Assembly: GCF_003325455.1 (NCBI RefSeq)
Contig: NZ_CP025198.1
Span: forward strand, 2,728,001-2,792,000
Direction of reading: 5' to 3'
DNA from: Acidipropionibacterium virtanenii
GTDB taxonomy: Bacteria > Actinomycetota > Actinomycetes > Propionibacteriales > Propionibacteriaceae
DNA: 64,000 nucleotides
The first letter of the stretch is position 1. Every line of letters starts with the position of its first letter. A program made the position numbers and the translations under genes. Shown in pieces: positions 2,203 to 41,221 of the stretch. The notes beneath the pieces were generated by a model that was not told the origin of the DNA, did not search any database, and saw only the letters and a program-made list of their open reading frames with translations.

Positions 2203-4749
2203 GTGACCACGCCGATCCGACACCGTCCCTCATCCCGGCACAAGGCCCTGCTGGTGGCGATGGCAGCGGCCCTCGCGATCGCCTCCCTCGTCCTGCCCCG
2301 GACCTCGGCTGTGGCGGCGGGCCAGATCATCGCCCACGACACGATGAGTCACGGCGAATCCAAAGGCTGGGGCGGCGCGAACAGTGGGGGCGTCTACACC
2401 GCCTCACCGGCAGATGCCGGCGCGGTCAGCGGAGGGACGGCGTCTTTGGTGAGCCCCGCACCGGGAGGCACCGCTGTCGTGACGCTGAACTCGGTCAGGG
2501 CTCAGAACGCCACCAGCCGCATCGACGTCCTGCTGCCGTCGTTGCCGGCCGGTAACAGCAAGGTGTACATCACACATTTTCTCCGCGGCACTGATCTCAA
2601 TTCCTACGCGGCCATGATGGTGGTCTCCTCCGACGGCACGAGTCTTCTGGTCCTCGAGCGCATCAGGAACGGCGTCGAGACCAAGTTCTCCACCGTGACC
2701 GGTCCGAGGATGGCGGCCGGGAGGCCCACGACTCTTGAGGTGTCGCTGGCGGGCACGAACCCTGTCCAGGTGGGAATCAAGGCCTGGTCGACGGCCGGTC
2801 GCGAACCCACCGGATGGGCTGCAGTGGCATCAGACAGCAGCGCCGGACGCGTCACCGCCCCGGGCGCCACAGGGGTCGACGTCTACGCGTCGAAGTCCGG
2901 AACGGTGACCCCCGTCCGATTCGACAACCTGCTGACCAGGGCCACCACCACTGCCCCGGAGAACTCCACCACGCCGGCTCCCTCCTCGACTCCGAGGCCC
3001 ACCACGCCCACAACAGCACCGGCCACCACAGCGGAACCCACGACTGCGGCTCCGGCCGGCACCGCATACGCCGGCCAGCGTCTCCATGCGGGTGCCACGG
3101 CTCCCGGATCCCAGTCCTACGGCGTCGCGGCGAATGCCAAGTACGTGGCAACCACCGGATCAGATGCCGGTCCTGGCACCAAGGCCAGCCCGTTCAGAAC
3201 GATCAGTGCCGCGACCAGGGCCGCCAGGGACGGCGGCACGGTGGTGGTGCGCGGTGGCGTATACCACGAGCAGGCCGTCGTCTACCCGCACAACAGACTG
3301 ACGGTCGAGGCCTACCCGGGAGAAGCCGTCTGGCTCGACGGTTCCCAGATGGTCTCGGGCTGGGTGAAATCCGGCAGCACGTGGGTGAAGAACGGCTGGA
3401 CCGCCTTCTTCGATGCCAGCCCCACCTACACCAAGGGCGCCCCGGACGGAACGGAGGAGAACTGGACGTGGATCAACCCGAGGTATCCGATGGCCTCCCA
3501 TCCCGACCAGATCTGGGTCGACGGTACAGCCCTGAGGCAGGTCGCCACCCGTACCGCGGTCACGGCCGGGACCTTCTTCGTCGACGAGTCCGCGAAGCAG
3601 CTGGTGATGGGCAGTGACCCGACGAACAGGAAGGTCGAGGCCAGCACCCTCGTCGAGGCCATGTCGATCCGCTCGAAGAACTCCCTGATCCGGGGGATCG
3701 GCGTGCGCCGCTATGCCACCAGTATCCCCGGGATGGGCGCTGTCACCACCTTCTTCCCGGGTGTCACCTTCGACAACATGACGATCATCGACAACGCGGC
3801 AACCGGACTCTTCACCGGCGCCAGCAACGTGACGGTGAAGAACGTCACGGTGCGCAACAACGGCCTCCTGGGCCTTGATGCGAATCACGCCGACGGGCTC
3901 ACCGTGAAGTCACTGCTGTCGACAGGCAACAACTCGCAGCACTTCAACACGGCTCCGGTATCCGGCGCCATGAAGATCACCACATCTCGAAATGTCACCG
4001 TCACCGACAGCGCATTCATCAACAACAACGGACAGGGCCCCTGGTTCGACGAGTCTGTGTACAACGCAACTTTCTCCCACAATGACGTCGTCGGCAACGA
4101 GGGCAACGCTCTGGTCTTCGAACTGTCCGATCGCCTGATCGCCGCGGACAACGTCTTCACCAACAACGGCGATGACGCCGTAGCGATCATGAACAGCGGG
4201 AACGCCACGATCTGGAACAACACCATCATCGGCAACGGCGGCGGCATCGATATCACCCAGGACTACCGGCGGGCCTCCGATCTGAGACTCCCCGGCCACG
4301 ACAGGCGCCGACCCGTGCCCGACCCGACGATGCCCTGGATCGTGCGGAATGTGTCAGTCGCCAACAACATCGTCTCCCAGAGCAAGGGCGAGTACATTCT
4401 GCGGATCGCTGACTGGTCGCGGGGGTTCACCGGTGCGCAGATGGTCTCCCGGAGCGAGGGCAACCTCCTGCACAGGGCATCGGCGGCCACGCCGACCTAC
4501 ACGGCCGTGTGGTCGCCTCATGTCGGTGCGGGCAGCAAGGGTTACGCGACCTTGCGGGACTACCAGTCGGCCACGGAACGGGACTCCTCGTCCATACTGG
4601 TCACCGGCGCCTCGCCGCTCACGGCGAACCTGCAGCTCACATCCCAGTACTCATCGCGAGCGTCTTCAGCGCTGCCGATCAGTGCGGACGTGGCCGCCGC
4701 CGCGCCGCGCCTCACGCAGGGAGCGAGGATCCTGGGCGCGAGCCACTGA
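2203..4749 (+). CDS. Secreted right-handed beta-helix protein (possible polysaccharide lyase/hydrolase)
   Basis: An 848-residue exported protein. Residues 1-39 form a signal peptide (basic N-terminus, LLVAMAAALAIASLVL core, AVAA cleavage site). Residues about 40-245 look like a beta-sandwich, and 246-288 are a Thr/Pro/Ala-rich linker. From about 311 (AKYVATTGSDAGPGT, SPFRTI) there are repeated turns of the NNNGD/GNGGGI type expected of a parallel beta-helix. The start is GTG, with GAAGGAG five bases upstream. Its place in a polysaccharide locus suggests it trims or modifies the exported glycan, as pectate-lyase-fold enzymes do; catalytic residues cannot be assigned by eye. A structural surface protein is also possible. 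Confidence 0.75.
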   Translation: MTTPIRHRPSSRHKALLVAMAAALAIASLVLPRTSAVAAGQIIAHDTMSHGESKGWGGANSGGVYTASPADAGAVSGGTASLVSPAPGGTAVVTLNSVRAQNATSRIDVLLPSLPAGNSKVYITHFLRGTDLNSYAAMMVVSSDGTSLLVLERIRNGVETKFSTVTGPRMAAGRPTTLEVSLAGTNPVQVGIKAWSTAGREPTGWAAVASDSSAGRVTAPGATGVDVYASKSGTVTPVRFDNLLTRATTTAPENSTTPAPSSTPRPTTPTTAPATTAEPTTAAPAGTAYAGQRLHAGATAPGSQSYGVAANAKYVATTGSDAGPGTKASPFRTISAATRAARDGGTVVVRGGVYHEQAVVYPHNRLTVEAYPGEAVWLDGSQMVSGWVKSGSTWVKNGWTAFFDASPTYTKGAPDGTEENWTWINPRYPMASHPDQIWVDGTALRQVATRTAVTAGTFFVDESAKQLVMGSDPTNRKVEASTLVEAMSIRSKNSLIRGIGVRRYATSIPGMGAVTTFFPGVTFDNMTIIDNAATGLFTGASNVTVKNVTVRNNGLLGLDANHADGLTVKSLLSTGNNSQHFNTAPVSGAMKITTSRNVTVTDSAFINNNGQGPWFDESVYNATFSHNDVVGNEGNALVFELSDRLIAADNVFTNNGDDAVAIMNSGNATIWNNTIIGNGGGIDITQDYRRASDLRLPGHDRRRPVPDPTMPWIVRNVSVANNIVSQSKGEYILRIADWSRGFTGAQMVSRSEGNLLHRASAATPTYTAVWSPHVGAGSKGYATLRDYQSATERDSSSILVTGASPLTANLQLTSQYSSRASSALPISADVAAAAPRLTQGARILGASH

Positions 4750-4764
4750 GATCTCACGGCCCGG

Positions 4765-6396
4765 TCAGCACCGGTCCCGGTAGATGTGGAGTTGCGCGGT
4801 CCCCAGTGCCCGCGCCACGAACCTTGGATAAGGGTGGGTCTCGCCGGCCCCTCTCCGGTGCTGCGGGGAACCGGAGACCACGACGCACGCCCGCGAAGTC
4901 CTGAAGTGATCGACGTACCACCCGCCACCCGAGGGCCGTCCGGTAGCCCGGGGCAGGAACTTCCGGTCAGAATGGGTACCCACCCATTCCAGCCCCGCAT
5001 CGACATCGCGCGGCGCCTCACCGGCGGCTACCAGGCCTTCGGCGGCCCTCCATCGTGCAGCATCGTATGAATCAGTGGCGGCGGTCAGGACCAGTCCGAG
5101 AAGACCCAGCAGACACGCACCGACGATCGCGAATCTGAACCCCGGCCCGGTCATTCCCGACGGTGCGCCGGCGGTTCCCTTCCTGGCCGGCAGGACGACG
5201 CCCGCCACCACTGGGACCAGAAGGAGGAGGTACCGGCTGAAGATGACTTGGCCCACGGCGCCCTGGGCGAGCGTCCCCAGCACCAGCAGTGCGCCGGCGA
5301 CGATCAGTAGGGGATCCCGGACGAAGGCGCCCTCAATGAGCTGCCCGGCAAGAAGGCCGGCACCCACGACCGCCAGCACGGGGAACAGCCCCCACAGCGC
5401 CGTGGGAAGGATGGCGGGTGCACCGACGGAGGCCACCGGATAGGCAACGGTATCGCCGAGATAGTTGCCCAGCAGCATGGATCGCCGTGACTGAAACACC
5501 CAGACGAGACCTAGCAGCACGAGCCCGCTCGTCAACCACCAGGTGCGTTTCCGCCACCGCAGTGGGCGTACCACGGCACACAGGACAGGAAGCAGATACA
5601 GACCCGAGGTGAAGAACATCTTCACCACAACGCTCGCGGTCTCCTCCACCGATATCCCGGTGGAGCCCAGCGGATCGTCTCCCGACAGCGTCCGGCGCCA
5701 GACCTCGAATGCCACCACCCCGGCAAGGACGATCATTCCTCCGGCCACCACCTGGCGGCGGGAGGGACGACGTGCCCACCATCCGGCGATCAGCACTGCC
5801 ACCGGGGCGAGAATCGCCTGTTCGCGCACCGTCACCGCCCAGATCCCGGCAATCAGACCCAGCCACAAGCTGAGGGAAGACGTGCGGCGGACCGCCCGGT
5901 CGCCCGCCCACAGGCAGGTGAGAACACCGGCCAGAGCGGGGATGTCGGCCATGTAGGACGTCGTCAGCAGACCGAACTCAGGAACCGCTCCAAGTGCCGC
6001 CGCGGCGAGCAGGGCCGCGCGACCTCCCGCCCTCGGCAGGACCAGGTGGTAGGCGGCGACGAGGCAGACCGCACCGCACAGGGCGACGAACACGTGCTGA
6101 GCCGTGATCGACGTTGCCAGAGGACCGAGGACAACCACCTGCCCGACCAGTGCCGATCTGTTCCAGCCGAGCATCGTGATCTGTGCGGTCCGACCGAAGT
6201 GCTGGGCGATCCACGAGTACGACCATGCATCGTTCCGAGGGAGCCCCAGACTCCCGGCGGCAAGACCGATCACAACTGGCATGCCGACGAACCCGCCCAC
6301 CAGGAAAGCGAGAGCCCAGATGTGGGCCTTCCGGCCCATCGGTGTCACCACCTCTGCCGCGGGCCCCGCGGAATCGGCCTGCCTGAACCGGGTCAT
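4765..6396 (-). CDS. Multipass membrane glycosyltransferase (GT39/ArnT-like)
   Basis: A 543-residue protein with about 10-12 hydrophobic segments. After the first segment comes GLPRNDAWSYSWIAQHF, which matches the Asp-containing first periplasmic loop of PMT/ArnT-type lipid-phosphate-sugar transferases. A second acidic motif, TSYMADIPAL, follows around residue 150. The long C-terminal soluble part ends in HIYRDRC. I chose ATG 6396 because GGAAGGG lies five bases upstream; a GTG at 6486 in the same frame has only a weak site. It ends 15 bp from the convergent beta-helix gene. The likely role is to transfer a sugar from a polyprenyl-phosphate donor outside the membrane. Confidence 0.7.
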   Translation of the reverse strand: MTRFRQADSAGPAAEVVTPMGRKAHIWALAFLVGGFVGMPVVIGLAAGSLGLPRNDAWSYSWIAQHFGRTAQITMLGWNRSALVGQVVVLGPLATSITAQHVFVALCGAVCLVAAYHLVLPRAGGRAALLAAAALGAVPEFGLLTTSYMADIPALAGVLTCLWAGDRAVRRTSSLSLWLGLIAGIWAVTVREQAILAPVAVLIAGWWARRPSRRQVVAGGMIVLAGVVAFEVWRRTLSGDDPLGSTGISVEETASVVVKMFFTSGLYLLPVLCAVVRPLRWRKRTWWLTSGLVLLGLVWVFQSRRSMLLGNYLGDTVAYPVASVGAPAILPTALWGLFPVLAVVGAGLLAGQLIEGAFVRDPLLIVAGALLVLGTLAQGAVGQVIFSRYLLLLVPVVAGVVLPARKGTAGAPSGMTGPGFRFAIVGACLLGLLGLVLTAATDSYDAARWRAAEGLVAAGEAPRDVDAGLEWVGTHSDRKFLPRATGRPSGGGWYVDHFRTSRACVVVSGSPQHRRGAGETHPYPRFVARALGTAQLHIYRDRC

Positions 6397-27214: not shown

Positions 27215-27904
27215 TCAGGACAGGGCGACCTCTGCGGCCGAGCTGAGGATCGAGCCCCTGAACTCGGCGGTCACCGGCGTCGTACCCACCGGGACGTCGT
27301 AGTAGGCGACGCCGACAATCTTGTTGCCGGGGTTGATCTGCTTCAGGAAGATGTTGCCGTCAACGGTCATGGTGTCCGAGGAGGTGCCGTACTCGTTGCC
27401 CTTGGCGTCCTTCACCTTGATCTGCGAGTCGTCGACGGTGGCCTGGTCGGAACCGTCATTCCTGATCGTCAGCGACATCTTGCAGAACTGCCCCTGAGGG
27501 GTGATGTCCTGGTAGCCGTCGCTGACAGACACTCCGCACTTGAACTCCGTGACGGTGAGAGTGAGATCGGCGGACTTCACCGCCGTGCCGATGCCGACCT
27601 TCTTGGGGGCCGCCTTCTTCGTGGCCTTGGTGGCCGGCTTCGTCGCTGTCGCCCCGGCGTCACCGGCCTCATCCGCGGCCGCCGTGGCGCTGGAGTCGGT
27701 GGTGGCTGCCTCCTCACCGCCCCCGCCTCCCATATTGGCGAACACGGCGATCGCGACGACGATGTAGAGACAGATCATCCACCAGCGCTTCCAGATGGAC
27801 TTCTTGGGCTTCTGGGGCGGGAAGTTGGGACCCTGGTATACGGGCCCCTGCTGGTAGGGCTGCCGGGGGTCGGGCTGCTGATGGCCCGGGGTCTGCTGGG
27901 ACAT
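27215..27904 (-). CDS. DUF4352 domain membrane-anchored protein (copy 2)
   Basis: A 229-residue paralog of the gene at 26220: MSQQTPG start, Pro/Gln-rich head, KKPKKSIWKRWWM, a membrane helix, an Ala/Thr/Lys-rich spacer (ATKPATKATKKAAPKK) and the DUF4352 domain. The ATG has AAAGGA six bases upstream. The region 27227-27314 is identical over 88 bp to 26232-26319. It is divergent from the HTH/methylase-like gene; operator-like palindromes at 27981-27994 and 28025-28044 lie between. No catalytic residues are apparent, and the role may be binding or adhesion at the surface. Confidence 0.8.
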   Translation of the reverse strand: MSQQTPGHQQPDPRQPYQQGPVYQGPNFPPQKPKKSIWKRWWMICLYIVVAIAVFANMGGGGGEEAATTDSSATAAADEAGDAGATATKPATKATKKAAPKKVGIGTAVKSADLTLTVTEFKCGVSVSDGYQDITPQGQFCKMSLTIRNDGSDQATVDDSQIKVKDAKGNEYGTSSDTMTVDGNIFLKQINPGNKIVGVAYYDVPVGTTPVTAEFRGSILSSAAEVALS

Positions 27905-27980
27905 GGTTGTTCCTTTCACGCATGTGCGGATGACGTTGGGTGAGACGTTGAGCTTGCTGTCGGCCCCCGCCGACGGCGAC

Positions 27981-28044
27981 GTCACAACTGTGACTGAGAA
28001 CAGTGCAACGTCATCTTGCGGTGGCTGATAAGTCCCCTTATCAG
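27981..28044. promoter_or_regulatory. Two palindromic operator candidates in the divergent region
   Basis: GTCACA-AC-TGTGAC (27981-27994) and CTGATAAG-TCCC-CTTATCAG (28025-28044) both have exactly complementary arms. They lie between the DUF4352 gene and the HTH/methylase-like gene and could bind the HTH protein itself or another regulator. Not matched to a known consensus. Confidence 0.5.
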
Positions 28045-28134
28045 GATTTATTGCCCCAGGATCATCCGTTTCGTCGTCCATCGGCCGTACAGTGCAGACA
28101 CCACGGCACATCACAGGAGACGGAAGGAGACGCC

Positions 28135-30174
28135 ATGACCACCACGACCATGTCCCTGGCCGATGTCGCCCGCCTCGCCGGTGTGCAGCGGCCGGTCGTC
28201 TCCATGTGGCGTCGGCGGCCCGTTCGCAACGTGCCTTTTCCCTCGCCTCAGCCGGACGGCCGATTCCTGGCCGACGACGTCGTCAGCTATCTGCGCACCA
28301 CCGGCCGGGGCAACAATCCCGAACCCGAGCTCTCGTCCGACATGGCCGTCACCGCCAGCCCGGCCGCCGATCCCGGAGATCAGGCCGACATCCTGGCCCT
28401 TCTGGCCGCCCGCGCGATCCTGGGCCTCGACGCCATCACCGGCGTCGACACCGAGGACCTCCTCGATGACATCGAGGCACTCGACCCCGACGACGAGTGG
28501 CTCTTCTCCGAGGTGGCCGACACCGACGCGGACCGCCTCGCCCCACAGGCCGACGCCATCGCCGACAACGCCTTCTCTACGGCCGGCGGCTACGAGGAAC
28601 TCAGATCGCATGCCGCGGCCCCGGGCGGTCTGCGCGACTCCCTCACCTCAACCCTTGTAGATCTCGCGACCGCGCTCCTCGGGGAGAACGGCGCCCTGGT
28701 CGACGTCGACGCCACCGCCTCCGATGTCGCCCTGGCGGTCACCGGAGACGATTCCCTCCCCGAGACACCGATTCTCCTGGCGACGTCCTCCCTCACTGCA
28801 CCCACTGCGCCGGCGGGCGCCCCGCACATCCGGCGATGCATCCGCCGCTACCGGGTGCATTCCCGCGATGTGCGCGCCGTCGGCATCCAGGACGACTGGG
28901 ATCTGCCCGAGGGCTCGGTCATCCTGGCCCGGGTCGGTGGCCCGTCTCCAGATGGCGGCTCCGCTGAGCCGAACCCTGCTGATGCGATGACCGTCATCGA
29001 CGAGCTGGCCCTCCACATGGACGCATCCACGGCGGCGCTGGTCGTCGGACCGGCGTCGATCCTCATCGACGAACTGCCGGCCGACGTGGTGGCGTCGCGA
29101 GACGCCTTCCTGCGCCGCGGCCAGCTGTTGGCGGCGGCGCGACTGCCCCGGGGCCTGCTGCGCGAGGGCGGCGGGGAGCACCTGGGGCTGTGGGTCATGG
29201 GTTCCGGCGATCCGAAGCACCTGTGGGCCGGCGACCTGTCGGGCACCGACTTCGAGGCGCCCACCCGGCAGCAGCTGCTGGACGACGTCGTCGCGGTCGC
29301 GTCGGCCTCCGGCCAGGCCCGTCAGACATCCGGCCACCAGCAGACCGACCGGGCCCATCGCCACAGCGCCGATCAACACCGGACCTACGAACACAGTGCC
29401 GATAGACGCCGCGCATTCGCCCTTCTCCACCGGGCTGATTCCACCCGTCTTCTGGCGAGGTCCCTGGCGCTGACCGCGCTGGACGTCTCCCCCACCGATC
29501 CCTTCCCCGTCTCGGCCGCCGACGACGCCGCCCGGATGGCCGAACTCCTCATCGGCCTGGCTCAGCCGATGGCCGACCCGTTCGCCGGCGTCCGTCCCCG
29601 GGCCACCGGATCGGCCACACCAGGAATATCGACTCTGGGGGATCTGGCCCGCACCCGGCTCATCCAGGTGATCTCAGGTCACCGCTTCGGTCCTCTTCCC
29701 GGCGGGCAGCTGCGGATGTGGACCGCAGACGCGGTGGCCGCCCGCCGCCCCGAGGCCGTCGATCTGATGGCGCTGACCTCCCGATACCCCGACGTCCGCC
29801 TCACCCGGCCGGGCGACGTCGTGTTCACCAGCGCGGCAACCCCGCACGCCGTGGTCGACGCCGAGGGCGGATCCGCGGTCGCCGAACCGGCCAGGATTCT
29901 GCGAGTATCGGCCACCGCTTCCCTGTCAGCCAGAGCGATCGCCGCGGCGATCAATGACCTCAGGCCGGCCTCCGGCAAGGGAAGATGGCGGTCCTGGCCG
30001 GTTCCGGTGGTAACCGGCTCCCGGGCCGAGGCTGAGGCAGCGCTGAGCCGCATCGACTCGTGGGAGGATCAGATCCGCAGCCGGCTCGACCTGCTCGACG
30101 AACTGCATCGCCTGGCGACCCGGTCGGTCACCTCCGGCGCGGTCGAATTCGTCCCTGTCAGGAACGCCCAGTGA
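28135..30174 (+). CDS. HTH protein with degenerate N6-methylase-like and TRD-like regions, ahead of hsdM
   Basis: A 679-residue protein. Residues 7-58 are a MerR-like helix-turn-helix (LADVARLAGVQRPVVSMWRRR). The centre resembles the actinobacterial HTH plus N-6 DNA methylase family: RRGQLLAAARLPRGLLREGG near 327-346 matches the LPxxLF segment of HsdM. But neither a DPACGSGG-type SAM motif nor an NPPF motif is present, so methylation is not expected. Residues 555-595 (LTRPGDVVFTSAATPHAVVD) look like an HsdS target-recognition turn, and 630-665 is a short helical hairpin. The ATG has AAGGAG five to six bases ahead. It ends 55 bp before hsdM, as first gene of the restriction operon. Function inferred only. 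Confidence 0.6.
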   Translation: MTTTTMSLADVARLAGVQRPVVSMWRRRPVRNVPFPSPQPDGRFLADDVVSYLRTTGRGNNPEPELSSDMAVTASPAADPGDQADILALLAARAILGLDAITGVDTEDLLDDIEALDPDDEWLFSEVADTDADRLAPQADAIADNAFSTAGGYEELRSHAAAPGGLRDSLTSTLVDLATALLGENGALVDVDATASDVALAVTGDDSLPETPILLATSSLTAPTAPAGAPHIRRCIRRYRVHSRDVRAVGIQDDWDLPEGSVILARVGGPSPDGGSAEPNPADAMTVIDELALHMDASTAALVVGPASILIDELPADVVASRDAFLRRGQLLAAARLPRGLLREGGGEHLGLWVMGSGDPKHLWAGDLSGTDFEAPTRQQLLDDVVAVASASGQARQTSGHQQTDRAHRHSADQHRTYEHSADRRRAFALLHRADSTRLLARSLALTALDVSPTDPFPVSAADDAARMAELLIGLAQPMADPFAGVRPRATGSATPGISTLGDLARTRLIQVISGHRFGPLPGGQLRMWTADAVAARRPEAVDLMALTSRYPDVRLTRPGDVVFTSAATPHAVVDAEGGSAVAEPARILRVSATASLSARAIAAAINDLRPASGKGRWRSWPVPVVTGSRAEAEAALSRIDSWEDQIRSRLDLLDELHRLATRSVTSGAVEFVPVRNAQ

Positions 30175-30229
30175 GAACCCCCAGAGACAACAACCCAGTG
30201 ACAACAACCGAGTGATGGAAAGGCCAGTG

Positions 30230-31867
30230 ATGGCACGCAGACCCGCAACGACTCAGCCCTCGACCCGAAAGGAACTCAAGGACACCCTGTGGAGGGCGGC
30301 CGACAAGCTGCGCGGCTCGATGAGCGCCGCCCAGTACAAGGACGTCGTGCTGGGGCTGATCTTCCTCAAGTACGTCTCCGACGCCTTCAATGAGCGTCGC
30401 GGGCAAATCACCGAGGAGCTGCGCGCCGACGGCTACGACGACGAGGCGGTCGCCGAGACTCTGGAAGACCGCGACGAGTACGCCTCGGGCGCCTTCTGGG
30501 TGGATCCGGATGCCCGCTGGGGCGCCCTGGTGGCCGAGGCGAAGGTGACCGGGGCGACGACCATCGGGCAGCGGATCAATGAGGCGATGGATCTGCTCAT
30601 GCGCGACAATCCGTCGCTGGAGGGCACCCTGCCCAGGCTCTTCAACCGGGACAATGTGGACCAGCGCAGGCTCGCCGAGCTGCTGGATCTGCTCAATTCG
30701 GTGCAGTTCTCCGGGATGGGGGCCGCCAAGGCGCGAGATCTTTTGGGCGAGGTGTACGAGTACTTCCTGGCGAATTTCGCCCTCTCGGAAGGTCATCGGG
30801 GAGGGGAGTTCTACACTCCGGCCAGCGTGGTGCGCGTGATCGTGGAGGTGCTTCAGCCCAGGAAGGGCCGGGTGTACGACCCGTGCTGCGGTTCGGGCGG
30901 CATGTTCGTCCAGGCGGAGAAGTTCCTGGACGCCCATGACGCCGATCCGACGAATCTGTCGGTGTACGGGCAGGAGCTCAATGAGTCGACGTGGCGGATG
31001 GCGAAGATGAACCTGGCCATTCACGGGCTCAACGGGGATCTGGGGCCGCGCTGGGGCGACACCTTCGCGATGCCGTACCACCCGGACAGGCAGATGGATT
31101 ATGTGATGGCGAATCCGCCGTTCAACATCAAGGACTGGAACCGCAACGAGTCCGATCCGCGCTGGGTCTACGGGGTGCCGCCGGCCAAGAATGCGAACTA
31201 CGCGTGGATGCAGCACATCATCTCCAAGCTGGCGCCGGATGGGATGGCCGGCGTGGTGATGGCCAACGGCTCGATGACGTCGACGTCGAACGGCGAGGGC
31301 GATATCCGGGCGCAGTTCGTGGAGAACGACCTGGTGGCGGCCATGGTGGCGCTGCCCGACAAGCTGTTCCGATCGACCGGGATTCCGGCCTGCCTGTGGT
31401 TCTTCGCAAAAGACAAAGGGGCCGGACGCGGCGGCTCGGTGGATCGGCGAGGGCAGGTCTTGTTCATCGACGCCCGCGAGATGGGCTACATGATCACAAG
31501 GGCCCAGAGAGGGTTGAAGGCCGAGGAGATCCAGCGGATCGCCGACACGTTTCATGCCTGGCGCGGGATGGAGCAGCTGAGTCTGGCGACCGCGGACGTC
31601 ACGGTCGACGACGAGGCGGATGTGTCCGCGGCCGGGATCGAGTACGAGGATGTTCCGGGGCTCTGCAAGTCTGTGTCGATCTCGGAGATCAAGGACGCCG
31701 GATACGCGCTGACGCCGGGGCGGTACGTCGGAATGGCGGGAGCCGAGGAGGATGCGGAGCCATTGGACGAGAAGATCGCCAGGCTCACGAATGAGCTGAA
31801 CGAGCAGTTCGCCGGATCGTCACGGCTACAGGACGAGGTTGTCTCACAGCTGGAGCGTCTGCAATGA
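30230..31867 (+). CDS. hsdM: Type I restriction-modification DNA methyltransferase subunit
   Basis: A 545-residue HsdM. The N-terminal helical domain (LKDTLWRAADKLRGSMSAAQYKDVVLGLIFLKYVSD) is canonical; GGEFYTPASVVRVIVEVLQP precedes the SAM motif DPCCGSGGMF (about residue 216) and the catalytic NPPF (N295). It adds methyl groups to adenine in the HsdS-specified site. ATG 30230 has GGAAAGG at six bases; an upstream in-frame GTG/ATG pair (30212) is less likely. Its stop overlaps hsdS by ATGA. All motifs are intact, so the modification half of the system should work. Confidence 0.95.
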   Translation: MARRPATTQPSTRKELKDTLWRAADKLRGSMSAAQYKDVVLGLIFLKYVSDAFNERRGQITEELRADGYDDEAVAETLEDRDEYASGAFWVDPDARWGALVAEAKVTGATTIGQRINEAMDLLMRDNPSLEGTLPRLFNRDNVDQRRLAELLDLLNSVQFSGMGAAKARDLLGEVYEYFLANFALSEGHRGGEFYTPASVVRVIVEVLQPRKGRVYDPCCGSGGMFVQAEKFLDAHDADPTNLSVYGQELNESTWRMAKMNLAIHGLNGDLGPRWGDTFAMPYHPDRQMDYVMANPPFNIKDWNRNESDPRWVYGVPPAKNANYAWMQHIISKLAPDGMAGVVMANGSMTSTSNGEGDIRAQFVENDLVAAMVALPDKLFRSTGIPACLWFFAKDKGAGRGGSVDRRGQVLFIDAREMGYMITRAQRGLKAEEIQRIADTFHAWRGMEQLSLATADVTVDDEADVSAAGIEYEDVPGLCKSVSISEIKDAGYALTPGRYVGMAGAEEDAEPLDEKIARLTNELNEQFAGSSRLQDEVVSQLERLQ

Positions 31868-33024
31868 GTCGTTTCAGGACCACGAATCTCGCTGACCTTC
31901 AAGACGCCATCATCGACAATCGCGGTCGAACGTGCCCAACCGCCGAGTCTGGAACTCCGCTCATCGCGACAAACTGCATTAAGGAAGACTCCGAGTACCC
32001 TGTTTTCGAGAAGATTAGATATGTCGACGAACACACCATGAGAACTTGGTTCCGAGGGCATCCGAAGCCCAACGACATCATTTTTGTATGCAAGGGGTCA
32101 CCTGGTCGATGCGCACTGGCGCCTCAGCCGGTCGGATTCGCAATCGCACAGGACATGGTGGCGCTTCGCCCAGACCCGACCCAAGTCTATTGGCGATACC
32201 TGTATTACGTTCTGAAACTCCCCAGCACGCGATCCTCTATTGAGAGCCTCTTCGTTGGAACACTGATTCCGCACTTCAAGAAGGGCGACTTCAACAAACT
32301 TCAACTGAGGATACACACTGACCTCCCCGAGCAGCAGGCCATTGCGGAGGTGTTGGGGGCGCTGGACGACAAGATCGCCGCAAACCGCAAGCTCGTCACC
32401 ACCGGCACCGAGCTTGGTTGCGCCCTCACCCGCCGCGCCCTCGCCACGAGCACGGTCGCCCCACTCTCTGAGCTGGCGGACATCACCATGGGCTCATCCC
32501 CGAAGGGCGACACCTACAATGAAAACGGTCAGGGAATCGTCATGTACCAGGGCAATCGGGACTTCGGACCACGATTCCCATCGCCCCGAATCTGGACGAC
32601 TGACCCAGTTCGCATCGCCGATGCCGGGGATCTCCTCCTCAGCGTTCGGGCGCCAGTTGGAGAACTAAACATTGCAGGAAACCGGTGTTGCATCGGCCGC
32701 GGCCTTGCTGCGATACACGCCGCACACCCACGCGCGATGTACTTCCTGATCAGCTGCCAGCCTGAGGTCTTTTACAGCTATAACAGCGACGGAACGATTT
32801 TCGGCTCAATCACCAAGAAGGGCCTGGAAGCGCTGCCACTGACAGTTCCAGACACTGGACTGGCACCACTTGAGGAATTGCTGTCACCGATAGAGGACCG
32901 CATCGAAGCCGCAGTTCGGGAGTCCGAGACTCTCGCCGCGCTTCGTGACACCCTTCTTCCCGCCCTGATGGACGGGACCATCCGCGTCAAGGACGCCCAA
33001 AAAGCCACAGAGGAGGCGGTCTGA
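31864..33024 (+). CDS. hsdS: Type I restriction-modification specificity subunit
   Basis: A 386-residue HsdS with two target-recognition domains: residues about 1-150 and 195-345, each followed by a conserved helix (LPEQQAIAEVLGALDDKIAANRKLV and APLEELLSPIEDRIEAAVRESETL). The helices set the spacing between the two half-sites. The first recognition domain has noticeably lower GC than its neighbours, as expected from domain swapping. The start overlaps hsdM by four bases, and hsdR follows at once (TGAATG). The target sequence cannot be read from the protein. Confidence 0.93.
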   Translation: MSRFRTTNLADLQDAIIDNRGRTCPTAESGTPLIATNCIKEDSEYPVFEKIRYVDEHTMRTWFRGHPKPNDIIFVCKGSPGRCALAPQPVGFAIAQDMVALRPDPTQVYWRYLYYVLKLPSTRSSIESLFVGTLIPHFKKGDFNKLQLRIHTDLPEQQAIAEVLGALDDKIAANRKLVTTGTELGCALTRRALATSTVAPLSELADITMGSSPKGDTYNENGQGIVMYQGNRDFGPRFPSPRIWTTDPVRIADAGDLLLSVRAPVGELNIAGNRCCIGRGLAAIHAAHPRAMYFLISCQPEVFYSYNSDGTIFGSITKKGLEALPLTVPDTGLAPLEELLSPIEDRIEAAVRESETLAALRDTLLPALMDGTIRVKDAQKATEEAV

Positions 33025-36000
33025 ATGATCAGCGAGGCCGACTGGGAGGCCGACATGCTCGACTGGCTGGCCGAACTCGGCTGGCAGCCGGGCACGGGCG
33101 CCGACATCGACGGGCAACGTCTCTCGCCCGCCGATCTCATCCTGCACACCGACCTGCTGGCCGCGCTACGACGTCTGAACCCCGACGTCCCCGACCAGCG
33201 GCTGGCCGAGGCCGCCGCCGAGATCATCGCCCCGAAGTCCCAGGACGCGATCGCCGAGAACGAGCGTCTCCACCACTTCCTGGTCCACGGATTCCGGGGC
33301 CTCACCTACGTCGACACCCAGGGCCGGGAACAGACCCCCACGCTGCGCCTCCTGTCGGACTCCCCCGCCGAGAACAGCTACCGCGCCATCCACCAGGTCG
33401 CCATCGCATCCGGCCAGCACCGCCGCCGCTTCGACGTCGTGCTGTATCTCAACGGACTGCCGCTGGCCATCGTCGAACTGAAGAAAGCATCCAACACCTC
33501 GGCCACCCTCGGCAATGCCTACAACCAACTCCAGACCTACCTGGCGGAATTCCCCACCGCCTTCCGCACCGTCGTCGCCACCGTCATCTCCGACGGCGTC
33601 GGGGCGAAGTACGGCACCCCCTTCACGCCGTCGAACCACTTCACCCCCTGGAACATCGACGAACACGGCGCGCACATCGACGACGACAACCAAGGCCTGG
33701 AACACCTGACCTACGGACTGTTCGAACCGCATCGCTTTGTCGACATCGTCAAGCATTTCGTCACCTTCGAGCACGGCGACCACATCACCAAGAAGATCGC
33801 CAAACCGCACCAGTACCAGGCGGTCCGCAAGGCCGTCGAACGCACCCTGACCGCCGTCGACTCCAACGGGAAGGCCGGCGTCGTCTGGCACACCCAGGGG
33901 TCGGGCAAGTCGATGGAGATGGAGCTCTACGCCAACCTGGTGATGAGCGACCCCGCGCTGCTCAACCCCACCATCGTCGTCATCACCGACCGGCGGGATC
34001 TCGACGGGCAGCTCTACGACATCTTCAACAGGTCCACCCTGCTGCCCGAGAAGCCCCGGCAGATCCGTCGGCGTCAGGAGCTGCGCGACTCACTGTCCAA
34101 CCGGAACTCCGGGGGCATCTACTTCACCACCCTGCAGAAGTTCGGCCTCACCGATGAGGAGCGCGATCGCGGCGCCGATCACCCCCTGCTCACCGACCGG
34201 CACAACGTCATCGTCATCGTCGACGAGGCCCACCGCAGCCACTACGACGACCTCGACGGCTACGCCAGACACCTCAAGGACGCCCTGCCCCACGGCACCC
34301 TCATCGCCTTCACCGGGACGCCGATCAGCAAGCCCGAGCACGACACCCGTGAGGTGTTCGGCGACTACATCGACATCTACGACCTCACCCAGGCCGTGGC
34401 GGACGGCGCCACCGTCCCGGTGTACTTCGAGCCGAGGCTGGTGAAGGTGGCCCTGGCGCCGGGGTTGTCCGCCGAGGAGATCGACGAGGCCGCCGACGAG
34501 CAGACCGCCGGGCTCGACGACTCCGAGCGGGAGCGCATCGAACGCACCGTTGCCGTCATCAATGCCATCTACGGGGCGCCCGAACGGCTGGCGGCCCTGG
34601 CGACTGACATCGTCGCCCACTGGGAGCGACGCCGGGACCTGATGGCCGAGTACCTGCAGCCCACCGATCCGGGTGATCTCGCGGTGCCCCACGGCAAGGG
34701 GATCATCGTCTGCGGCACCCGGGAGATCGCCGCCAGGCTCTATGACGAGATCGTCGCGCTGAGGCCGGGCTGGCATTCCGACGACGACCGCACCGGCGTC
34801 ATCAAGGTGGTGTACTCCGGGTCGGCGTCCGACCCGGATCCGATCCGCAAGCACGTACGCCGCGAGTCCCAGAACAAGGCCATCAAGAACCGTCTCAAGG
34901 ACGTCAACGACGAACTCGAACTGGTGATCGTCAAGGACATGATGCTCACCGGATTCGACGCCCCCGCCTGGCACACCATGTATCTGGACCGGCCGTTGAA
35001 GGGCGCCCAGTTGATGCAGGCCCTGGCCAGGGTGAACCGGACCTTCCGGGGGAAGAAGGCCGGGCTGCTGGTGGCCTATGCGCCGCTGGCAGACAACCTG
35101 AAGGCGGCGCTGCGCGAGTACACGGCACGGGATGAGGAGAATGAACCGGTCGGCAAGGACATCTCGGCGGCGGTTCATGAGACCCGGCGCCTGGTGGAGG
35201 CGCTGCGGGGATTGCTGGCCGGTTGCGACTGGAGGTCTGTTCTTGAGGGCGGTGGACGGCGGGCGGCCAGGGACGCCGTCACCAAGGCCGTGGAGTATCT
35301 GAGGTCTGCGGCCACCCCCGGCAACCGGGTGGAGGAGGGCCAGGCGACCCTCAAGGAGCGGTTCCGGATGCTCTCGGGGCAGTTGGGGCGGATGTGGGCG
35401 CTGTCGGCGGGGTCGGAGAACCTCAACGAGCTGCGCCAGGAGATCCGGTTCTACGAGGAGGTCCGTGGCTGGATGGCCAAATGGGACGCCCGGGAGCGCG
35501 AGGCCTCCGGGCAGGCCATTCCCGAGGAGGTTCAGCGGATGCTCAAGGGGCTGGTGGCCGAGGCGACCGCCGCCGGCGACGTCGCCGACATCTACGCCGA
35601 GGCCGGCATCGACCTGCCGGATCTGCGAGCGCTGACACCTGAGAAGGCCGAGGAGCTGGCGAAGAGCGACAAGCCGCAGCTGGCGATCGAGGCGCTCCGC
35701 GACATGCTGATGGCCGAGGCGAAGGCCGCGACCGCGCACAACCTGACCCGGCGGACGATGTTCAGCGAGCGGATCAACGACCTCATGATCCGCTACACGA
35801 ACCAGCAGCTGACGTCGGTGGAGGCCATCACACTGTTCCTCAGAATGGCGGGAGACGTCGCCGCCGAGGCGGCGCGCGGGGAGCGGTTCGACCCGCCGTT
35901 GAGCGCCGACGAGCTGGCCTTCTACGACGCCGTGAGCCAGAACGACTCCGCGGTGGAGTTGATGGGCGACGACGTCCTGGCCGTGATCGCCCGGGAACTG

Positions 36001-36186
36001 GTGGGCGTGATGCGCCGGGATACCAGGACCGACTGGCGGGTGCGCGCGGATGTGCGGGCGAAGCTGCGCTCGGCGGTGAAGAGGCTCCTGCGCAAATACA
36101 AGTACCCGCCGGACAAGCAGCCCACCGCGGTGAAGCGCGTCATCGACCAGATGGAGGAGTTGGCCCCGGGATACGCGGCGCGGTAG
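33025..36186 (+). CDS. hsdR: Type I restriction-modification endonuclease/translocase subunit
   Basis: A 1053-residue HsdR of normal length. The N-terminal PD-(D/E)xK nuclease shows FDVVLYLNGLPLAIVELKKAS (Glu and Lys near 150). Walker A HTQGSGKS is at about 289, the DEAH box VDEAHRS at about 400, and AFTGTPI next, followed by the second RecA lobe (MLTGFDAPAWHTMYLD, QALARVNRTF) and a long helical C-terminus. It cuts unmodified DNA after translocation. The ATG lies directly on the hsdS stop (TGAATG) with GGAGG just upstream. No frame damage is seen, so restriction should be active. Confidence 0.95.
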   Translation: MISEADWEADMLDWLAELGWQPGTGADIDGQRLSPADLILHTDLLAALRRLNPDVPDQRLAEAAAEIIAPKSQDAIAENERLHHFLVHGFRGLTYVDTQGREQTPTLRLLSDSPAENSYRAIHQVAIASGQHRRRFDVVLYLNGLPLAIVELKKASNTSATLGNAYNQLQTYLAEFPTAFRTVVATVISDGVGAKYGTPFTPSNHFTPWNIDEHGAHIDDDNQGLEHLTYGLFEPHRFVDIVKHFVTFEHGDHITKKIAKPHQYQAVRKAVERTLTAVDSNGKAGVVWHTQGSGKSMEMELYANLVMSDPALLNPTIVVITDRRDLDGQLYDIFNRSTLLPEKPRQIRRRQELRDSLSNRNSGGIYFTTLQKFGLTDEERDRGADHPLLTDRHNVIVIVDEAHRSHYDDLDGYARHLKDALPHGTLIAFTGTPISKPEHDTREVFGDYIDIYDLTQAVADGATVPVYFEPRLVKVALAPGLSAEEIDEAADEQTAGLDDSERERIERTVAVINAIYGAPERLAALATDIVAHWERRRDLMAEYLQPTDPGDLAVPHGKGIIVCGTREIAARLYDEIVALRPGWHSDDDRTGVIKVVYSGSASDPDPIRKHVRRESQNKAIKNRLKDVNDELELVIVKDMMLTGFDAPAWHTMYLDRPLKGAQLMQALARVNRTFRGKKAGLLVAYAPLADNLKAALREYTARDEENEPVGKDISAAVHETRRLVEALRGLLAGCDWRSVLEGGGRRAARDAVTKAVEYLRSAATPGNRVEEGQATLKERFRMLSGQLGRMWALSAGSENLNELRQEIRFYEEVRGWMAKWDAREREASGQAIPEEVQRMLKGLVAEATAAGDVADIYAEAGIDLPDLRALTPEKAEELAKSDKPQLAIEALRDMLMAEAKAATAHNLTRRTMFSERINDLMIRYTNQQLTSVEAITLFLRMAGDVAAEAARGERFDPPLSADELAFYDAVSQNDSAVELMGDDVLAVIARELVGVMRRDTRTDWRVRADVRAKLRSAVKRLLRKYKYPPDKQPTAVKRVIDQMEELAPGYAAR

Positions 36187-39609: not shown

Positions 39610-39685
39610 GCGTCAGCTGGAGCTAACATGTAGGCTGATGTCATCTATAGCTGACATCACTCCCAATGTCATCTGGAGCTGACAT
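39610..39685 (+). promoter_or_regulatory. Three operator-like sites upstream of hipBA, 28 bp apart
   Basis: ATGTCA-N8-TGACAT occurs at 39638-39657 and 39666-39685, and a weaker version (GCGTCA-N8-TAACAT) at 39610-39629. Starts are 28 bp apart. The layout of a 6-bp arm and 8-bp spacer resembles known HipB operators, so autoregulation by HipB is likely. Confidence 0.75.
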
Positions 39686-39719
39686 TCAGGTCATTCCCGA
39701 GTCCAAGGAGGCACGATCC

Positions 39720-39971
39720 GTGGAGATCTCCAGTGCATCCGATGCCGGCGCCATCCTCCGGACCGCCCGCCTTGAGAAGGGCATGACCCAGCAGCAGCTG
39801 GCCGATATGCTCCACGTCACACGCCAGTGGGTGGCCAACGTCGAGGTCGGCGCGCCGACCGCCCGTCTCGGGCTGGTCATCGACGCCCTCCGCTGTGTCG
39901 ACGTGCTCCTGGAGACCAGGAACGACGATTCCCAGGCGCTCCTCGATCAGATCCGGAGCAATCTCGGATGA
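39720..39971 (+). CDS. hipB: HipB-like antitoxin, XRE helix-turn-helix
   Basis: 83 residues. DAGAILRTARLEKGMTQQQLADMLHVTRQWVANVEVG is an XRE helix-turn-helix, as in HipB. It neutralises the HipA kinase and represses the operon. GTG 39720 is chosen because AAGGAGG lies eight bases upstream; the ATG at 39666 in the same frame falls inside an operator site and has no ribosome site. Its stop overlaps the hipA start by ATGA, so synthesis is coupled. Three operator-like sites lie just upstream. Confidence 0.85.
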   Translation: MEISSASDAGAILRTARLEKGMTQQQLADMLHVTRQWVANVEVGAPTARLGLVIDALRCVDVLLETRNDDSQALLDQIRSNLG

Positions 39972-41221
39972 CTGACGTGCTCGATGTCTACCTGAACAGC
40001 CGACTCACGGGCCGACTCAATCGCGATACCGACGGATCTGTCAGCTTCGACTACGTCGATTCCACTGACCCGACACCCCTGTCATTGTCAATGCCGAAGG
40101 GGGCTTCCCACCACTCCCCCGACGTGACGATGCCATGGCTGGACAATCTGCTTCCCGACAACGACGAGGTGCGCCGGAGATGGGCCACAGAGTTCGGTGA
40201 ACGGCGCGCCACCCCGTTCAACCTGCTGCGTCACATGGGTGCCGACTGTGCGGGCGCGGTCCAGGTGGTACCCGCCGGCGAGATCCCTGGCCAGGACGGG
40301 GCGCTCACCGGACCGTCAGAGACTGAGATCGCTTCTCACATCCGTACCCTTAGGGCCGACGACGCGGCATGGGACTTCGAGGAGCGCGGTGGCCGATGGT
40401 CACTCGGCGGGCAGCAGGGCAAGTTCGCCCTCGCCCGCATGGAGGATGGCTGGTTCCTGCCATCCGGACGTGCCGCCAGCACCCATATCGTCAAGGTCGG
40501 AATCGCCGCCGTCCCGGATTCCGACATCGCCGAGTTCGTCACGATGCGGACCGCAGCACTGCTCGGGCTGCCCGTACCGACGGTCGAGTACGCCCAGTTC
40601 GGCGATCAGGCGGTGCTGGTGGCCGAGCGCTTCGACCGCCTCAAGATGAACGAGGACGTGCGAAGGCTGCATCAGGAGGACCTCTGCCAGGCCATGGGAC
40701 TGTGGCGTTCGAGCAAGTACCAGTCGGACGGTGGCCCGTCCTCCTCGGACGTCGTCGAGTTCCTGGAACGCACCCTCGACCCACGCGACCGGGACCGCGG
40801 GATCCACGACTTCGCCCGCGCCCTGGTCTTCAACTGGATCCTCGCGGGGACAGACGCCCATGCCAAGAACTATGCGCTCCTGCACCTCGGCAGCCGAACC
40901 ATCCTCGCCCCGTTCTATGACCTCATCTCCACGGCGCTCCTATGGCCAGCGAAGCAGGTTCACTTCGAGGGCCGCCTCGCAATGAAGTTCGGCGGGGAGT
41001 ACAGGCTCCGCAGGGTCGACCTCGGCCGCTGCGCGAAGGCAGCCTCAGAGCTGCGGGTCCCCGAGGAGTTCCTGGTCGGCATCACCAAGGACTACCTGAC
41101 CCGGATCCCCGATGCCGTCGCCACAGCTCTGAAAGATCTCTCTGATTCAGTTGCCGACTCCACACGTGCTCGGATGCAGGACGCCATGGCCGAACGCCTC
41201 ACTCAGGTCAATCCCGCCTGA
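39968..41221 (+). CDS. hipA: HipA-type serine/threonine kinase toxin
   Basis: A 417-residue HipA. The N-terminal domain (LDVYLNSRLTGRLNRD, SMPKGASHH), the Lys/ATP region THIVKVGIAA, VLVAERFDRLKM, QEDLCQAMGLWRSSKYQ, the catalytic TDAHAKNYALL and FYDLISTALL are all visible, so the kinase looks intact. HipA toxins phosphorylate glutamyl-tRNA synthetase and slow growth. It overlaps hipB by four bases. Length is near normal, about 420-440. The nearby antitoxin-like genes and unknown operon suggest an accessory cluster. Confidence 0.9.
   Translation: MTDVLDVYLNSRLTGRLNRDTDGSVSFDYVDSTDPTPLSLSMPKGASHHSPDVTMPWLDNLLPDNDEVRRRWATEFGERRATPFNLLRHMGADCAGAVQVVPAGEIPGQDGALTGPSETEIASHIRTLRADDAAWDFEERGGRWSLGGQQGKFALARMEDGWFLPSGRAASTHIVKVGIAAVPDSDIAEFVTMRTAALLGLPVPTVEYAQFGDQAVLVAERFDRLKMNEDVRRLHQEDLCQAMGLWRSSKYQSDGGPSSSDVVEFLERTLDPRDRDRGIHDFARALVFNWILAGTDAHAKNYALLHLGSRTILAPFYDLISTALLWPAKQVHFEGRLAMKFGGEYRLRRVDLGRCAKAASELRVPEEFLVGITKDYLTRIPDAVATALKDLSDSVADSTRARMQDAMAERLTQVNPA

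Follow-up and report, generated by a model that had tools for sequence, protein, structure and literature searches.

In the chromosome of Acidipropionibacterium virtanenii, the first gene of a type I restriction operon encodes a protein, here called X, that resembles a DNA methylase, bears a helix-turn-helix (HTH) at its N-terminus and lacks the catalytic motifs. This raises the question of what such a protein does at the head of the operon. To our knowledge, the control of type I restriction systems is almost unknown. The stretch analysed here (the window, 64,000 nucleotides) belongs to a complete chromosome of 3,432,872 bp, and homologues of X were gathered from 199 genomes of the family, 397 of the order and 395 of the class. 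A preliminary description of the window had taken X for a catalytically dead, DNA-binding relative of the actinobacterial HTH plus N6-methylase proteins, which might either control the following hsdMSR genes or modify their specificity or timing. The features of the locus are collected in Table 1.

Table 1. Features of the X-hsdMSR locus, in positions of the window
Feature	Position	Strand	Basis or remark
Second palindrome, GTCACAACTGTGAC	27981-27994		Clear in one sister species (L034), weak in the other two species
Predicted X operator, CTGATAAG-TCCC-CTTATCAG	28025-28044	.	Perfect 8-bp arms
-10-like hexamer TACAGT, X operon promoter	28088-28093	+	TANNNT at a set distance after the palindrome
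Protein X	28135-30174	+	HTH, pseudo-N6-methylase and half-HsdS-like part (TRD, long helix); 679 aa
HTH of X, residues 7-58	28153-28308	+	Secondary structure of the model; best-conserved X domain
Degenerate N6-methylase domain of X, residues 182-370	28678-29244	+	Fold and profile comparison
TRD-like domain and long C-terminal helix of X, half-HsdS-like, residues 495-672	29617-30150	+	Alignment, model, Foldseek HsdS 3okg E 3.6e-5
hsdM	30212-31867	+	Pfam N6_Mtase 1e-108; start may be the ATG at 30230
hsdS, variable specificity subunit	31864-33024	+	Pfam Methylase_S 1e-13
hsdR	33025-36186	+	Pfam HSDR_N / SWI2_SNF2 / T1RH-like_C

Gene order and architecture of protein X

Pfam and PADLOC confirmed that X heads a type I operon, since hsdM, hsdS and hsdR lie directly 3' of it with no gap fitting another gene, and the adjacent genes together with the intact catalytic motifs of HsdM (DPCCGSGG and NPPF) identify a type I restriction-modification (R-M) operon. 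Further downstream, 3.5 kb after hsdR, a HipB-like HTH gene is followed by a HipA kinase-like gene (39666-41221, plus strand; Pfam Couple_hipA, HipA_C).

The reading frame of X starts with the ATG at 28135, which is preceded by GGAAGGAG, a good ribosome site, and ends with a TGA. Searched singly against Pfam, NCBIfam, PADLOC and PDB sequences, the window protein gave zero matches. An AlphaFold2 model (mean pLDDT 85, pTM 0.64) places three helices (residues 8-15, 19-27 and 46-56) in the region where an HTH had been proposed, and the recognition helix corresponds to about residues 19-27 (RPVVSMWRR). Two short landmarks of the preliminary description were also found again, namely the LPxxLL segment near 335-346, which reads LPRGLL at residues 337-342, and PGDVVFT near 559, which occupies residues 559-565 and belongs to the signature of the TRD-like domain (PGDVVF...VDxEGG...PARILR). 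In Foldseek comparisons the model resembled HsdM (7eew, 3lkd, PacII M1/M2, 2okc), the type IIG enzyme BpuSI, M.TaqI and HsdS (3okg), and a profile of 22 family X proteins had HsdM 2okc as its sole match of interest among PDB sequences (E 0.012, in the RLPxG stretch). As modelled, the layout is an HTH, a helical region, a methylase fold, one TRD and a long helix.

Descent and loss of the catalytic motifs

The suspected kinship to the actinobacterial HTH plus N6-methylase family proved correct. When X was compared with 11 of these proteins, hhalign gave 99.85% and an E-value of 1.1e-30 over columns 4-639, which is the full length, and two intermediate X proteins (L134 and L138) still exceed the Pfam N6_Mtase cut-off. 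Judged from these sequence profiles, X is a full-length relative of the actinobacterial HTH plus N6-methylase plus TRD proteins, for which the profile-profile match is decisive and assigns it to this superfamily by descent. To HsdM it has a likeness of fold only, and the window protein has no Pfam HsdM_N or N6_Mtase match.

The catalytic motifs were followed in an alignment of 22 Propionibacteriaceae members and in a wider family of 45 members. Motif IV, (N/D/S)PP(F/Y/W), is missing in all 45 proteins; its position reads VILARVGG in the window protein and CLPF in the least degenerate ones. Both the SAM motif I and motif IV are absent from all 22 Propionibacteriaceae proteins, and in the window motif I is replaced by LVDVDATASD, which agrees with the earlier remark that neither a DPACGSGG-type nor an NPPF motif can be seen. 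Motif I (DPAAGAG/DPAAGGG) is kept only in L134, L136 and L138 and in the truncated L140. Without motif IV (0/45) and, in the window, without a motif I of the form DPAxGxG, X does not belong to the active N6-adenine DNA methylases, and the view of X as a catalytically dead methylase relative is upheld by the aligned sequences; an intact SAM pocket, one of the two outcomes named as speaking against the preliminary description, did not emerge. The keepers of motif I fall into the earliest-branching clade of the HsdM tree, so that the catalytic motif would have gone throughout the family and the SAM motif decayed later. X may thus represent a clear case of an enzyme turned regulator, with the catalytic motif gone everywhere, the SAM motif lingering in an early-branching clade and the HTH best kept (mean identity 48%).

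Association of X with one HsdM lineage

Among 51 full-length copies of X with readable downstream DNA, 50 are followed directly by hsdM (25 family loci, 22 others and three plasmids), and homologues are therefore not mostly unlinked to restriction genes, an outcome that had been named as one speaking against the preliminary description. The single exception is L119, where X has its operator and the genome holds no related hsdM; this orphan X (3970-6021) lies beside a Fic gene and may either have lost its operon or have been put to another use. Conversely, within the 199 family genomes X stands directly upstream of all 25 HsdMs that are at least 64% identical to that of the window, and it is absent upstream of the 19 next-closest hsdM operons, even at an E-value of 1. 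In the HsdM tree, operons with and without X are separated by a single branch (support 97/99), and the presence of X requires one change on this tree vs 16.8 with shuffled labels. Because the two groups are the two sides of one branch, a single gain of X with later retention is the simplest reading.

Among 397 genomes drawn from the whole phylum, X was not seen outside the class Actinomycetes, one further draw of genomes from the family gave zero new loci, and X was not found in phage records. As the phylum-wide draw yielded few new loci for validation, plasmids were used as hold-out. Some X-led operons contain additional genes between hsdS and hsdR, such as those for IrrE/ImmA-type peptidases in L037 (6748-7905) and L120 (4911-6059), the former also with an XRE-type HTH.

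A conserved palindrome upstream of X

Two palindromes had been noted at 27981-28044, and both are present. The one nearer to X is conserved family-wide and recurs in several actinobacterial families with the consensus CTGATAA-N6-TTATCAG. It is matched without mismatch in 14 of 47 X promoters and with at most two mismatches in 33 of 47, while the best sites in 100 dinucleotide shuffles per promoter had 3-5 mismatches; G3 and A7 are invariant in 90 half-sites. The sites of L045/L046 and L121 are weak or divergent. The palindrome is absent from the 19 hsdM promoters without X and from 15 regions upstream of HTH-N6 methylases. In the host genome (3.43 Mb) the site before X is the sole one at up to two mismatches, exactly one site (at most one mismatch) occurs in nine of ten other genomes with X, and nine of ten genomes without X have zero sites. 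The held-out material gave the same picture, as three conjugative Micrococcaceae plasmids carry X, hsdM, hsdS and hsdR in this order and have the operator in 3/3 cases (0-1 mismatches, at -83 to -88). In all three plasmids X is annotated as hypothetical, and the operator may serve as a marker for finding X-led operons.

The second palindrome was considered as the main operator and rejected on account of its limited conservation (Table 1). It may belong to the divergent gene that faces the X promoter, a DUF4352 gene on the minus strand (27215-28114, likely start about 27904). A role for this gene was likewise rejected, because it was found in the same genus only.

Covariation of the HTH and the operator

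The half-sites vary together with the recognition helix. RPVVSMW or RPVVTTW goes with TGATAA, RPVVSNW with TGGTAA, RQAVSMW with TGTTAA, RQAVTNW with TGTTTA and RSVVSKW with TGACAA. The exchange V21A in the HTH is accompanied by A4T in the half-site, with T4 in 4/4 proteins with A21 vs 0/41 others, counts that comprise few substitutions in related proteins and are uncorrected for phylogeny. The A21 proteins occupy more than one place on the tree, and their neighbours are A4 relatives with V21. Such a pattern would be expected if the recognition helix of X reads the palindrome directly. For X from L054 or L122 the expected target would accordingly be CTGTTTAG-N4-CTAAACAG and not CTGATAAG-N4-CTTATCAG.

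A probable regulator of its own operon

With an HTH protein at the operon head and a conserved palindrome at its own promoter, X has the layout of an R-M autoregulator. The proposal that it controls the following hsdMSR genes has gained strong independent support at the level of sequence, as the predicted operator is conserved, has a fixed position at the promoter, occurs almost nowhere else in the genome and changes together with the HTH helix; a role in the timing of the operon is plausible. The reading preferred here, to which a probability of about 0.8 is given, is that X acts as a dedicated, dead, palindrome-binding regulator of its own hsdMSR operon, captured once and most likely an activator.

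The sign of regulation depends on promoter geometry. A TANNNT hexamer follows the palindrome at 30-33 nt in about 34 loci, at exactly 31 nt in 19 of them (background 1.5%), and at 30 nt in the three held-out plasmids; in the window and its closest relative, the sister species L034, the spacing is 43-44 nt and not 31. For the window, transcription is predicted to begin at about 28100. A -35 signal was not detected in X promoters (2.4 of 6 matches vs 2.9 in the control). Since the operator lies upstream of the core promoter and outside the transcript, an attenuator is excluded and an activator is favoured. In actinobacterial promoters the -35 box is often weak or not clear, so that the sign is something we infer, and the absence of the box here favours activation only weakly.

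In the preferred scheme, a protein with an HTH, an N6-adenine methylase and a target recognition domain would have been captured once at the front of an hsdMSR lineage. Through the HTH, X would bind, probably as a dimer, to the single CTGATAA-N6-TTATCAG, which precedes a -10 at a set spacing and without a recognisable -35, and bound X would most likely activate transcription of X-hsdM-hsdS-hsdR in a positive loop resembling the one formed by C proteins. Binding as a dimer with activation of the own operon is, taken as a specific claim, rather probable. Such a loop would hold back expression when the operon reaches a new cell, and a lag of this kind would suit operons on conjugative plasmids. 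The pseudo-methylase/TRD body presumably carries the input signal. Feedback from assembly of the complex or from the methylation state is the most interesting guess for this input, and a tentative version of it sees the body as a sensor, which mimics HsdM/HsdS, associates with one of the subunits of the complex or with DNA of a particular methylation status and switches the operon by the amount of modification enzyme. If so, type I systems would have in X a feedback controller of their own, built from a pseudo-enzyme.

The strongest rival is that X represses its own operon and that infection or a shortage of HsdM/HsdS lifts this repression. Precedent speaks for it, as the regulators known to head type I operons are repressors, both RptR (PMC12255303) and the C-family gene that precedes hsdMSR in Mycoplasma gallisepticum (PMC12707154), and autoregulation by HTH-methylases such as M.EcoRII and M.Ecl18kI is also known as repression (PMC12707154). 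However, an operator that lies outside the core promoter, with a constant spacing of about 31 nt between its end and the -10 and with no conserved -35, suits an activator better, and autorepression is regarded as unlikely, if the most serious of the alternatives.

Divergence, selection and other explanations

A further possibility is that X is a structural or accessory subunit, in which a pseudo-HsdM plus half-HsdS enters the M2S1 complex, or competes for a place in it, and adjusts its assembly or activity, with DNA binding being secondary. Its domain order indeed mimics HsdM plus half of HsdS, the Foldseek matches include HsdM, PacII M1/M2 and HsdS, and across all pairs the divergence of X tracks that of HsdM and HsdR (correlations of 0.4-0.55 for the main domains, vs 0.04-0.16 for HsdS). 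This reading leaves the palindrome unique to X promoters and the covariation of the HTH unexplained, however, and the TRD of X does not follow replacement of HsdS. Between the window and L034, HsdS is only 29% identical, but X-TRD is 79%, X-HTH 85%, HsdM 93% and HsdR 89% identical. An accessory subunit is thus considered improbable. The same comparison led to rejection of X as a second specificity subunit and argues against the earlier suggestion that X modifies specificity, as X has one TRD-like unit, unlike an HsdS proper, and this unit stays constant where HsdS changes.

Other readings of the palindrome, either as an RNA hairpin that acts as attenuator or terminator or as a binding site for a host regulator, are very improbable. 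The palindrome is a perfect inverted repeat and was flagged as terminator-like with a poor T-run. A terminator was nevertheless rejected, because the repeat precedes the -10 and thus falls outside the transcript, and the repeat also varies with the recognition helix of X. Its absence from operons without X and its occurrence at most once per genome with X also exclude a host regulon.

That X is a decaying methylase pseudogene with no present function, as lost motifs and fast divergence (mean identity 30%) might suggest, is hardly credible and was rejected, since the open, full-length frame is under purifying selection (pN/pS in the closest pair 0.37, with 0.16 for HsdM and 0.81 for HsdS) and X has been retained throughout the HsdM lineage, in several families, together with an operator core that does not vary.

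Comparison with known systems

As a presumed dedicated regulator of its operon, X can be set beside several known groups. The actinobacterial HTH plus N-6 DNA methylases (Pfam N6_Mtase PF02384 with an N-terminal HTH) have the same domain order and HTH signature. In the majority of the sampled proteins motif I and a motif IV of the xPPF type persist, and N6_Mtase scores of 83-146 bits were obtained for the ones that were scanned, whereas X has lost motif IV everywhere, is tied to hsdMSR and has a palindromic promoter site that these proteins lack. In four loci (L143, L144, L147 and L155) an HTH plus N6-methylase heads a different arrangement that includes one or two additional HsdM-like reading frames and an HsdR-like one, which is possibly a second, independent recruitment of an HTH-methylase before restriction genes.

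C proteins share with X the position of an HTH regulator at the head of an R-M operon, one palindrome upstream of their own promoter and a likely auto-activation. They are small HTH dimers, in contrast to the 679 amino acids of X with its pseudo-methylase/TRD body, and X has neither the length of the C-protein family (about 80-100 amino acids, homologues of C.PvuII/C.AhdI) nor, in the case of the window protein, a match to a Pfam HTH family. Mycoplasma gallisepticum has a type I hsdMSR operon that is likewise headed by a C-family gene (PMC12707154). HTH-methylase fusions that regulate their own R-M system, in cases independently of catalysis, are known from M.EcoRII, M.SsoII and M.Ecl18kI (PMC12707154). 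These are active type II enzymes as well as repressors, whereas X is derived from an N6-methylase, inactive, separate from a working HsdM and part of a type I system.

RptR (RMS-proximal transcriptional regulator) is the first gene of a type I operon and has its own conserved promoter motif (PMC12255303). It is a small bZIP-like repressor of Gammaproteobacteria with TAGCTA repeats overlapping the -10, and both the protein and the geometry are unrelated to X. DarTG can be nested in both kinds of operon; in one X-led operon (L044, 9119-10855) a DarT/DarG-type pair (DarT plus Macro domain) lies between hsdS and hsdR, comparable to DarTG in the RptR-controlled type I island. Weak profile matches to PADLOC PDC-M06B and MADS mad1-mad2 were seen for a few X members (E 1e-4 to 5e-3); the window protein had no such match, and the content of the X operon is plain type I hsdMSR.

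In the searchable literature, with subscription papers and preprints outside its scope, no description of the X family was found. Regulators at the head of R-M operons are already known, none of those compared here being a dead N6-methylase, and this variant appears to be new. The combination of a large pseudo-methylase, a single operator and the promoter geometry is preserved in several actinobacterial families as well as on conjugative plasmids, and with one palindrome and one gene it becomes testable how a type I system stays silent or turns on in a new host.
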